From Rothia dentocariosa ATCC 17931 (GTDB lineage Bacteria; Actinomycetota; Actinomycetes; Actinomycetales; Micrococcaceae): 64,000 nt of DNA. Position 1 is the stretch's first letter; every line of letters begins with the position of its first letter. The position numbers were made by a program, and so were the translations under genes. The notes beneath the pieces were generated by a model that ran no database searches, was not told the DNA's origin, and worked only from the letters and a program-made list of their open reading frames with translations. The stretch is from the NCBI RefSeq assembly GCF_000164695.2, contig NC_014643.1:1736001-1800000 (forward strand). Reading direction: 5' to 3'. Positions 12,984 through 17,155 of this stretch are shown here, in pieces.

Positions 12984-13352
12984 TTAGTCTATCGGGGAAA
13001 CTCGGATACGGTTCCCATCTAGATCACTTGCTACGAAAGTCATCCCAAATACATCACGATGGGGCTCTTCCAATATGACAACCCCTTGTTCCACCCAGGC
13101 TTGGTACTGCGTGAGGATTTCTGCATCGGAACCCTTGAGATTTATACATACCTCAGACGTACGTGTTGAAGTTTCATGAAGAGTATTGCTTGCTCCGGTC
13201 CACAACGCTAGCGAGACTCCCGGCGCTAAATCCATGGTGACATAGCGTGGCGAGGTAAAACTGACCTCAAGATTTAAAATGCTCGTATAGAAGGACACTG
13301 AGGCCTCGATATCCGATACATAGACAATAAAAACGATCTCACGGTCAATCAT
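12984..13352 (-). CDS. VOC superfamily (glyoxalase/bleomycin-resistance-like) protein
   Basis: 122-aa single-module VOC protein with the βαβββ start 'IVFIVYVSDIEASVSFYTSILNLEVSF' and the closing 'FGMTFVASDLDGNRIRVSP'. The family covers glyoxalases, dioxygenases and antibiotic-binding proteins, and the substrate cannot be read from sequence. The ATG at 13352 was preferred to the one 8 codons upstream because AGAAGG lies 12 nt before it and the extra residues do not fit the fold. It lies downstream of lexA on the same strand with about 100 bp between them. Confidence 0.8.
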   Translation of the reverse strand: MIDREIVFIVYVSDIEASVSFYTSILNLEVSFTSPRYVTMDLAPGVSLALWTGASNTLHETSTRTSEVCINLKGSDAEILTQYQAWVEQGVVILEEPHRDVFGMTFVASDLDGNRIRVSPID

Positions 13353-13454
13353 TGTGCTGTTGTTCCTTCTGGACATGAGACGGTTGAATACGCAGGAACG
13401 GAACCTCTAGCGCGTGTCTTTTGAGAAAAACGCGCGCAGTTCAGAAGATCCCTG

Positions 13455-14123
13455 TTAGATGCTTCGCAGAACAGAAACTACTTTACCCATCACCGTGGCG
13501 CGGTCGCCGAGTATGGGCTCATATTGGGAATTTCGGGGGAGCAGCCAGGTATGACCATCTACTTGGCGGAATACTTTGACGGTCGCTTCGTCGTCAAGAA
13601 GAGCCGCAACAATGTCTCCATTATCAGCGGTGTGTTGTTCACGCACAACAACCCAGTCACCGTCGCATATGGCGGCGTCAATCATAGAATCCCCTTTGAC
13701 GCGAAGCATGAAGAGCTTCCCGCTGCCCACGAGCTGGCGGGGGAGAGAGAGAACATCCTCAACGGATTGCTCAGCCGTAATAGGCCCACCAGCAGCAATG
13801 CGACCTACGAGGGGCACGGGAACCATATCCTCATCGCTCACCTCAAATGTAGGCAGCTCCGGAAAATGGGCTGAAGTGCCCTCATGCTCTAGATCGTCAA
13901 GAATCTCAATGGCACGCGGTAGTTTTGGATCGCGGCGAATATACCCCATCTTCTCAAGACGACCGAGCTGATGAGTCACCGAAGAAAGCGAAGCCAACCC
14001 AACGATATCGCCAATCTGACGCATCGAAGGGGGATATCCCTTCTGCTCGATTTCTGTACGAATCGCATCCAAAATTTTCTGCTGACGCGGAGTCAGCGGA
14101 GGGCGCTGAGCTTCGGGTGTCAT
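13455..14123 (-). CDS. lexA: SOS repressor LexA
   Basis: Transcriptional repressor of SOS genes that self-cleaves on activated RecA. 222 aa. N-terminal winged helix (about 10-75, '[21 protein letters not shown]'). The cleavage site is Ala111-Gly112 (RIAAGGP), with catalytic Ser146 (GDSM) and Lys183 (TVKVF). All functional residues are present. An AGAAGG ribosome-binding site precedes the ATG. It is divergent from the LysM-domain gene, with a palindromic SOS-box candidate in the 460-bp gap, as in M. tuberculosis (lexA/Rv2719c) and Corynebacterium (lexA/divS). Confidence 0.97.
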
Positions 14124-14439: not shown

Positions 14440-14582
14440 TAGAGCATCTTGAGAGAATCCGAAAGCAAAATATGTGCTTTCTGCAGGAATATGAACTCAT
14501 ACCAACCGCATTATGAGCATTGAGAATGGTGTGTAACGGCGAGGATATGAACTTGTCACACACCAGAGGAAAGGAAAATACT

Positions 14583-15224
14583 ATGGCAACGGCTGCTTCT
14601 TCCTCCCGGATTCCGGCGGGGTTAACCGTCATTCACCCGGCTCGTGTTCGTCAGGGCTCTTATCGAGCACGTACACACTATGCTTCACCGAGCCGTTCCC
14701 GTGTGCCTCATCCTCATCCTCGACTGACTTTTCCTCAAGTACAAGCTGTATACGAGACTTCATTCTCAGCTGCACCACAGAAAGTGAACGTCACATCTTC
14801 CTCTCAGACTCAGCAGAGCGTAACCGGTAAAACATCAAGCGGACAGCGGCGGGTTCCAGAAAAACTTAAAGGTGTGTCGGTGGTTAATAAGCGCAATCCC
14901 TCATTTTTCACACGTGCTATGCATTGCTCTAGGGCTCTGAAAAATTGGGTTTTTGGCATTCCGCTGATAACGCTGGCGGCCCTTGTCGTTCTTGGGGCGA
15001 TCATTCTTATATCGCCGCATACAGCAAACGCTGGAAATAATTCTCAAGGCGCAGGAACCCGGTACGTGACCGTTCAATCTGGAGATACGCTCTGGGATAT
15101 TGCACAAGAGGTAGACCCGAAGACTGATCCACGCGACACCATGGTGCAGATCAGTAAACTTAATGATCTGCAGGGTTCAACTGTCAAAGTCGGGCAGCGT
15201 CTAGAAGTCCCAAATGTGCGATAG
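14583..15224 (+). CDS. LysM-domain membrane protein, SOS division-inhibitor candidate
   Basis: 213-aa protein. Residues 1-120 are cytoplasmic and Ser/Arg-rich, one TM helix spans about 122-144 (WVFGIPLITLAALVVLGAI), and a C-terminal LysM peptidoglycan-binding module covers about 160-210 ('VTVQSGDTLWDIAQ...VKVGQRLEVP'). The ATG at 14583 has AGGAAAGGA upstream. Position divergent from lexA and architecture match M. tuberculosis ChiZ (Rv2719c) and Corynebacterium DivS, SOS-induced proteins that block septation. I infer the same role. No catalytic hydrolase domain is seen. A weak 7-bp hairpin (15220-15241) begins within the stop codon and may terminate it. Confidence 0.75.
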   Translation: MATAASSSRIPAGLTVIHPARVRQGSYRARTHYASPSRSRVPHPHPRLTFPQVQAVYETSFSAAPQKVNVTSSSQTQQSVTGKTSSGQRRVPEKLKGVSVVNKRNPSFFTRAMHCSRALKNWVFGIPLITLAALVVLGAIILISPHTANAGNNSQGAGTRYVTVQSGDTLWDIAQEVDPKTDPRDTMVQISKLNDLQGSTVKVGQRLEVPNVR

Positions 15225-15517: not shown

Positions 15518-16180
15518 ATGCCCACACGTCCCACAGTAGCTATACTTGGCGAATTTGGCACATATGGCGAGCTCCAGCAAGCGTGCGAGCGCGTCGGTGC
15601 CCAAGCGTTCGTTACCACAGATCTCGATTCTCTACGAGACGCTGATGGTACGGTGATTGCTGGCCATAAGAAATCTCTCGAAACATACGAGGCTGTGCGG
15701 AAACTCCACGGTGATCGGGTGCTTGGCAGGCGCGTTGCAGGCGGCCGTCCTGTCCTTGTTGCGGGGGCTGGTTTTGGGATGTTATTTGAAGTTATCCGAA
15801 CCGTGAACCCAGAGCTTGGAGACCTTGATATTTCTGCACTAGGAGAGTGGCCGGGTGCTGCACAAGATCTAGCCACCGCTGGGGCTCATCCAGGATGCTA
15901 TAGGGTTGAGGCCGCTGTGTCCAGTAAATTTTTACAGGATCTTCCTGAACCCCTAAATTTCAAAGCAGAGGATGGCGTGTTTACCTGGGATTTTGACCAG
16001 AGTATAGACTATATGGAGCCGCCTGCTGTCAGTTGGACTGATGCAGATCCGCGTTATATTGCAGCTGTCGAGAATGGTCCTCTCACAGCAATTCAATTTT
16101 GTCCGGTAGCTTCGGGTGCTGCAGGTGAAGAATTTCTTCGCCGCTGGGTTGCGCATCTTCCCGTCATGAACCGTTTGTAG
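15518..16180 (+). CDS. HisH-like protein with all glutaminase residues lost
   Basis: 220-aa class I glutamine amidotransferase fold, clearly aligned to HisH (imidazole glycerol phosphate synthase glutaminase subunit): 'ACERVGAQAFVTTD', 'DADGTVIAG', 'GDRVLGRRVAGGRPVL', 'EWPGA' and 'ENGPLTAIQFCPVASGAAGEEFLRRW'. The nucleophile Cys of G(I/V)CVGMQ is Gly83. The His and Glu of FHPEKSG are Cys195 and Val197. The oxyanion region and the PHMGWN block are also changed. It cannot work as a glutaminase by the known mechanism. The frame is intact, with 'aactaaggag' as RBS. It heads a cluster with a small membrane protein and PriA. It may be a scaffold or a decaying gene. Confidence 0.8.
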   Translation: MPTRPTVAILGEFGTYGELQQACERVGAQAFVTTDLDSLRDADGTVIAGHKKSLETYEAVRKLHGDRVLGRRVAGGRPVLVAGAGFGMLFEVIRTVNPELGDLDISALGEWPGAAQDLATAGAHPGCYRVEAAVSSKFLQDLPEPLNFKAEDGVFTWDFDQSIDYMEPPAVSWTDADPRYIAAVENGPLTAIQFCPVASGAAGEEFLRRWVAHLPVMNRL

Positions 16181-16402: not shown

Positions 16403-17155
16403 ATGGGTACTCTAGAACTTCTTCCCGCAGTCGATATTGCTCAGGGGCGTGCAGTGCGTCCCGTAGGCGGTCGCCTCTCCCAACAGAGTGAGGGTACAGA
16501 TCCGGTGGAAGCGGCTCTATCGTGGCGCCGCGCGGGGGCACGATGGATTCATCTTGTTGATCTGGATTTGGCGTTTGGCCGTGGTAACAACATTCGCACC
16601 CTTCGCAAGGTTATTGATCGAGTTCGTGCGATAGCTCAGAATCCTATAAAAATACAGGTCAGTGGCGGTGTTAAAGATGAACGTTCTTTGGAAATCGCCT
16701 TGAGTCTTGAACCCGATCGCATCAACGTGACGTCGGCGGCGCTGCAGCATCCGGCATGGTTAGAGAAAACACTAGGGCACTATGGTGAGCGGATAGCTCT
16801 GGGTTTGGATGCTCGCAATGGAACCGTTGTAGCACGTGGGACCGAATGGTGTGGCGATTCCGTGCATAACACAGTGCGATGGCTGCAAACTGCGGGAGCA
16901 TGCCGATATATTGTGACAGATGTAAGCCGAGATGGTGCTCTCTCAGGGCCTGGGCTACAGCTGCTTCGTGAAGTTCTCAGTCTCACTGAGCATCCCGTTG
17001 TGGCTTCGGGAGGTGTTGCTTCACTGGAAGATATTCGCACTCTTCGTGCGCTGACGAATCAGGGCTTGGAAGGTCTTGTCCTAGGGAAGGCACTGTACGT
17101 CGGCAATTTTACTTTTGAAGAGGCTCTTAAGGCGGCTAATGATGATGCCTCATAA
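16403..17155 (+). CDS. priA: HisA/PriA phosphoribosyl isomerase
   Basis: (βα)8-barrel isomerase of histidine synthesis (ProFAR to PRFAR); in Actinobacteria the PriA form also performs the TrpF step of tryptophan synthesis. 250 aa. The general acid/base aspartates are D11 (LPAVDIAQG) and D173 (VTDVSRDG). The two phosphate loops are 'VSGGVKDERSLEIAL' and 'VVASGGVASLEDI'. In the loop around R145 the PriA pattern ARGW is replaced by ARGTEW (W149), so dual specificity is uncertain. It starts 4 nt after the small membrane gene and overlaps sseB at its end. Unlike the HisH-like neighbour it looks enzymatically intact. Confidence 0.85.
   Translation: MGTLELLPAVDIAQGRAVRPVGGRLSQQSEGTDPVEAALSWRRAGARWIHLVDLDLAFGRGNNIRTLRKVIDRVRAIAQNPIKIQVSGGVKDERSLEIALSLEPDRINVTSAALQHPAWLEKTLGHYGERIALGLDARNGTVVARGTEWCGDSVHNTVRWLQTAGACRYIVTDVSRDGALSGPGLQLLREVLSLTEHPVVASGGVASLEDIRTLRALTNQGLEGLVLGKALYVGNFTFEEALKAANDDAS

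Follow-up and report, generated by a model that had tools for sequence, protein, structure and literature searches.

A gene of Rothia dentocariosa ATCC 17931 encodes a HisH homologue (here called pseudo-HisH) that has lost its glutaminase triad in a genome without HisF; it is very likely a retained pseudoenzyme and not a gene in decay. Alignments show the protein to be a HisH descendant without the active-site residues and without the Trp of the HisF contact, and codon comparisons show that it is under purifying selection. Here, we report an analysis of the gene, its neighbors in the window (the whole stretch of 64,000 nucleotides that was analyzed; NC_014643.1, positions 1,736,001 to 1,800,000), and its relatives in the genus Rothia and beyond. 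The pseudoenzyme reading is very likely, and the more specific reading as a scaffold is moderately likely.

A HisH gene without its active site

The open reading frame (Table 1) starts with ATG, has AAGGAG 5 bases upstream, and contains no internal stop. The TIGR01855 (HisH) profile matched residues 14 to 211 (E value, 2.2e-9; 37.4 bits), which falls below its curated cut-off of 105.4 bits, and a Pfam search of the protein returned no family at E values up to 1. Best matches in a PDB profile search were the solved HisH structures 4gud and 1ka9. Alignment with canonical HisH placed Gly83 at the nucleophile Cys, Cys195 at the His, and Val197 at the Glu, which bears out the original prediction of an intact-frame homologue with these three substitutions. 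The PGVG (oxyanion) loop, the GICVG elbow, and the HSY motif are lost as well, as are the HMGWN Trp and a first-helix Arg, which we take, from the motif and a Thermotoga sequence, to be the equivalents of W123 and R18. In HisH, W123 and R18 are interface residues, and changing them affects activation (PMC12828452). No glutaminase activity is predicted for pseudo-HisH.

A displaced catalytic triad, which had been raised as an objection, was not seen: the only cysteines of the window protein are C23, C127, and C195, and its elbow has none. In G012, G013, G014, and G027, a Cys lies 5 residues past the elbow, in the next helix.

The window genome is closed (single contig, 2,506,025 bases). The earlier proposal to look for hisF and for a second hisH was followed up, and neither was found: the HisF model and Pfam His_biosynth matched PriA only (HisF model, 58 bits; cut-off, 294.55), and the sole other HisH-like match was PdxT (196 bits; cut-off, 105.55). 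Profile searches for hisD and hisG gave no match in this genome. Three marks of HisH membership, a score above the TIGR01855 cut-off, the Cys-His-Glu triad, and a HisF partner in the genome, are all absent here. In the histidine-positive genome G002, hisC and hisB sit between the LysM gene and hisH; in the window genome, about 300 bases separate the end of the LysM gene from hisH.

Table 1. Features at and near the pseudo-HisH locus (coordinates in the window)
Feature	Coordinates	Strand	Basis
Triad-less HisH homologue (pseudo-HisH), 220 amino acids	15518..16180	+	TIGR01855 match below cut-off, alignments, AlphaFold2 model
Small hydrophobic membrane-protein-like ORF, 59 amino acids	16219..16398	+	No family
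PriA with HisA-substrate residues changed (SubTrpF-like)	16403..17155	+	TIGR01919, PDB PriA matches, alignment, marker residues of PMC13055916
LysM protein resembling division suppressor YneA	14520-15224 / 13455-14123, pair with lexA		47.6 bits, cut-off 60
Glyoxalase-fold (VOC) protein	12984-13376		Weak FosB-model similarity, far below every cut-off

Upstream, the LysM gene points away from lexA (matches to LexA_DNA_bind and Peptidase_S24). SOS control via a LexA-type box was considered and rejected; the consensus CGAACNNNNGTTCG had no match in the window at one mismatch or fewer. A scan for promoters and terminators gave results near chance. The VOC gene was seen in G000 only among 21 loci, and the G023 contig ends before that region. 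Downstream, the membrane ORF had no NCBIfam match and only one subthreshold Pfam match; it follows hisH in 16 of the 21 loci (13/13 histidine-positive, 3/8 histidine-less) and overlaps the hisH stop codon in G002.

PriA scored 245.7 bits against TIGR01919 (cut-off, 306.45) and is a HisA/HisF-family barrel by profile search. Positions 19, 85, 105, 145, and 170 of PriA are tied to HisA activity in PMC13055916, and our residue numbers were counted from the residues named there. In the histidine-less clade described below, Ser replaces T105 and Thr replaces W145 in 7/7 sequences, and Lys replaces R85 in 3/7, so that of the five HisA-linked positions two differ in every sequence and a third in some; marker residues R19 and T170, and also Ser81, His50, and Arg143, are unchanged in 7/7. 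Retention of PriA after his gene loss is described, with SubTrpF cases, in PMC5404923 and PMC13055916. Since trpA is present everywhere (35/35 genomes of the genus), in keeping with a need for TrpF, PriA of histidine-less Rothia is most simply explained as kept for tryptophan, like the gene-loss cases in PMC5404923, and its residues apparently make it another case of specialization after histidine loss. This tryptophan role cannot explain the retention of HisH.

Histidine loss in the genus and the order

Out of 35 Rothia genomes, 27 had hisF above the cut-off, and hisD was found in those same 27. The eight without both genes (G000, G001, G012, G013, G014, G023, G027, and G033) are called histidine-less here; hisG was found in 0/8 of them and in 3/3 histidine-positive genomes searched. 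All eight carry a HisH homologue with no internal stop and no triad residue, and the substitutions first noted in one genome thereby recur, as loss of the triad, across every histidine-less genome of this set. The canonical triad was intact in all 13 fully aligned histidine-positive loci, which were drawn from 26 histidine-positive genomes in which HisH was matched. G031 (65% complete; hisF and hisD present) was the sole genome of the genus with no HisH match.

The neighbor-gene phylogeny indicates two independent histidine losses. In a tree of six neighbor proteins, seven of the histidine-less genomes form one clade (support, 100/100), and G023 groups with histidine-positive G005 and G006 (support, 100/100). 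The histidine label needs two changes on this tree, and a single histidine-less clade was rejected (p-AU, 0.00176). The placement of G023 rests on its hisH contig, with 46% of columns filled, in a genome that is 72% complete. Its membrane ORF shares 87.5% identity with the G005 one, and its HisH carries WTFDQNNEAM-PPQVTW, a stretch of the canonical G005 type. Nearest to G023 HisH were P0121 to P0123, near copies (87 to 99%) that are triad-less too; after these, canonical Rothia HisH scored 155 bits versus 132 for the best triad-less sequence of the main clade. In the HisH gene tree, the triad-less rows join (81/85, unstarred), with end branches of 8.8 and 10, so the HisH gene alone cannot exclude a single origin. 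A HisH tree constrained to unite G023 with G005 and G006 was not rejected (p-AU, 0.174), and we infer that the joining of the triad-less rows is long-branch attraction.

Retention of HisH after histidine loss is unusual in the order sample. Of 396 genomes, 366 had hisF above the cut-off. Non-Rothia genomes under the cut-off numbered 27, and 26 were searched for HisH; G354 (hisF match, 1e-83), presumably the 27th, was left out. Full-length HisH is kept in G330 (about 1,060 contigs) and G332 (hisF match, 1.2e-63), which were set apart. None of the remaining 24 hisF-less genomes (three families; few independent losses among them) had a full-length HisH match: 10 had no match, and 14 had short ones (no more than 93/222 profile positions; E value, 1.3e-9 or weaker). 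The same search matched 3/3 histidine-positive controls at 1.2e-50 to 1.8e-72. The match in G033 is not an independent control, because G033, G001, and G023 lie within the search profile. In a survey of the family, hisD was present in 291/295 genomes, and the four without it were three Rothia genomes and G149. G149, from another genus of the family (100% complete), had no hisD match and keeps the HisH triad (L075 and L080).

Farther afield, the triad was wholly absent in 104 of the best 120 of 581 homologues and complete in 16, with no mixed cases; 100 of the 104 were readable at all three positions, and 4 were partly gapped. Five triad-less proteins in public records (P0010, P0022, P0034, P0049, and P0054) are named "imidazole glycerol phosphate synthase." This naming may mislead metabolic models of Rothia; the genomes examined here that carry triad-less HisH lack hisF, hisD, and hisG. 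A scan of genome contigs found no relative, in a set from which very near records were possibly left out.

Selection and retained residues

Pairwise dN/dS (Nei-Gojobori) was computed for hisH, priA, dinG, and lexA, with dS saturated in distant pairs. For the six pairwise combinations of G012, G013, G014, and G027, pseudo-HisH gave 0.118 to 0.153, PriA 0.056 to 0.300, dinG 0.024 to 0.040, and lexA 0.026 to 0.034; the two computable histidine-positive pairs gave 0.049 and 0.122 for canonical hisH. Set against dinG and lexA, the constraint on pseudo-HisH is real yet looser than that on housekeeping genes. In a neutral simulation, a frame stayed free of stops with a probability of 0.0385 after 0.22 substitutions per site, and of 0.0005 after 0.8. 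Codons in the conserved motif stretches printed from the genus alignment vary synonymously; selection therefore acts on the protein, and a DNA or RNA element behind the motif conservation was rejected on this basis. The gene thus combines enzyme homology and lost catalytic residues with purifying selection and frames left open across lineages, as expected of a pseudoenzyme. Intact frames in 8/8 genomes and dN/dS of 0.12 to 0.15 support the original suggestion that a pseudoenzyme was retained in a structural or regulatory capacity, and further support comes from the same residues being kept in two lineages that are independent by their neighbor genes.

Those residues were counted over the 140 sites at which 12 or more of 13 canonical sequences agree. 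Of these, 53 are kept by the main clade (six sequences, G033 left out) and 66 by G023; 43 are kept by both, versus 25 expected (p, 1.8e-10). With G, P, W, and C sites removed, 25/103 were kept in common (p, 1.7e-7). Kept in all sequences, including G033, were A42, D43, GRR-AG-RPVL (70 to 80), F90, GEWPG (109 to 113), W157, F159, Q161, P169, V171, W173, A183, ENGPL (185 to 189), A191, W210, and R219, the last being the C-terminal R of the TGR tail. Canonical HisH from other families of the order (G306, G320, G330, G332, and G479) holds the retained set only in part: residue 70 is not Gly, GEWPG is altered, and the TGR tail was not seen. Three HisHs of another genus of the same family have the residue-70 Gly and GEWPG motifs, with the tail absent.

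An AlphaFold2 model of the protein (53 sequences) reached a mean pLDDT of 93.3 and a pTM of 0.91. In the predicted fold, residues 70 to 78 close a helix and run into the strand that bore the old nucleophile, and residues 185 to 189 form the turn preceding the strand of the old His. In class I amidotransferase topology, both would fall at the far end of the sheet from the active site. Fold constraint alone could cause the same sites to be retained; it would not explain what the fold is for.

Explanations and known systems

Our best explanation, drawn from sequence comparison, is that pseudo-HisH is a pseudoenzyme, with its fold and one group of noncatalytic residues preserved by selection, and that it probably carries a noncatalytic binding or scaffold role older than the loss of the pathway. 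Rothia HisH would already have had this second role, as a binding or scaffold subunit whose contacts would lie outside the glutaminase site; GRR-AG-RPVL, GEWPG, W-F-Q..P-V-W, ENGPL, and the C-terminal R in the TGR tail are the candidate residues. When histidine synthesis was lost, twice and independently, the enzyme parts would have eroded and the part serving the second role would have stayed.

Alternatively, pseudo-HisH might be a dedicated PriA subunit that binds this HisF-like barrel in place of HisF and stabilizes or regulates it for tryptophan synthesis. PriA lies downstream of hisH in 7/8 histidine-less genomes (no more than tens of bases away in G012, G013, and G033), is of the HisA/HisF family, and has SubTrpF-like residues and a dN/dS similar to that of pseudo-HisH. 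Against this, G023 keeps pseudo-HisH in a locus that runs hisH, membrane ORF, SseB gene, with PriA missing there and no match elsewhere in that incomplete genome; moreover, the Trp equated with HisF-contact W123 is absent in 8/8 histidine-less genomes, and the Arg equated with R18 is absent in 7/7 readable rows (replaced by Lys in 4). We regard a PriA subunit as unlikely. The adjacent partners named in the original prediction fare no better, with the membrane ORF missing at the locus in 5/8 histidine-less genomes and PriA in 1/8: HisH is the constant member of the locus, and neither PriA nor the membrane ORF is. A new catalytic activity, perhaps via Cys195 in the place of the old His, is quite improbable. 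Cys195 is kept in 93/93 triad-less homologues of at least 210 amino acids among the best 120 and in 6/8 histidine-less genomes, but the position is Asp in G023 and P0121 to P0123 and Ala in G033, so Cys195 is not shared by every lineage in which the protein persists, and the residues that all of them keep lie away from it.

Two further readings deny the product a function. Retention of the frame purely as a leader for priA and the downstream genes, through coupling, a promoter, or an RNA element, would fit the hisH stop lying near or overlapping the next start in some loci (e.g., G002 and G013); it is very improbable, given constraint at the amino acid level with free synonymous change and a G023 locus that keeps hisH without priA. 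It is scarcely credible that the gene is a plain relic in early decay, open by chance, as had been offered as the other possibility at the outset. Faster evolution than dinG and lexA and the strong divergence of G033 and G023 would suit a relic, yet all eight frames are open, dN/dS is low, survival under neutrality is improbable in simulation, and identical residues are kept in separate lineages.

The retained-pseudoenzyme reading may extend to the working enzyme. The chances are about even that Rothia HisH, perhaps throughout the Micrococcaceae, has a second function unrelated to histidine that would reside in residues away from the glutaminase site. If so, a protein that persisted in two independent lineages after its pathway was gone would matter in histidine-positive relatives even when histidine is supplied. 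HisH has persisted, apparently twice, beyond the loss of partner, pathway, and active site; this natural experiment sets a catalytic job apart from a hidden one and names residues to test.

Compared with canonical HisH, pseudo-HisH is homologous over nearly its whole length, and its gene precedes priA in the same order as in histidine-positive relatives. It differs in lacking the Cys, His, and Glu, the PGVG loop, HSY, and the HisF-contact Trp, in scoring far under the family cut-off, and in residing, in the window, in a genome without HisF. SubTrpF PriA, in the passages searched of PMC5404923 and PMC13055916, is likewise a pathway member that human-associated actinobacteria retained when genes were lost, and the window PriA fits that description; there, PriA keeps its tryptophan catalysis, whereas pseudo-HisH has neither an active site nor a known remaining pathway. 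The same passages contain no mention of hisH. A search of one open-access literature library found no report of a triad-less HisH kept after histidine loss. Pseudoenzymes keep a fold and an open frame under purifying selection after their catalytic residues are lost. Pseudo-HisH does the same, and differs from pseudoenzymes generally in having been kept after its partner enzyme and the tested pathway genes were lost, apparently twice.
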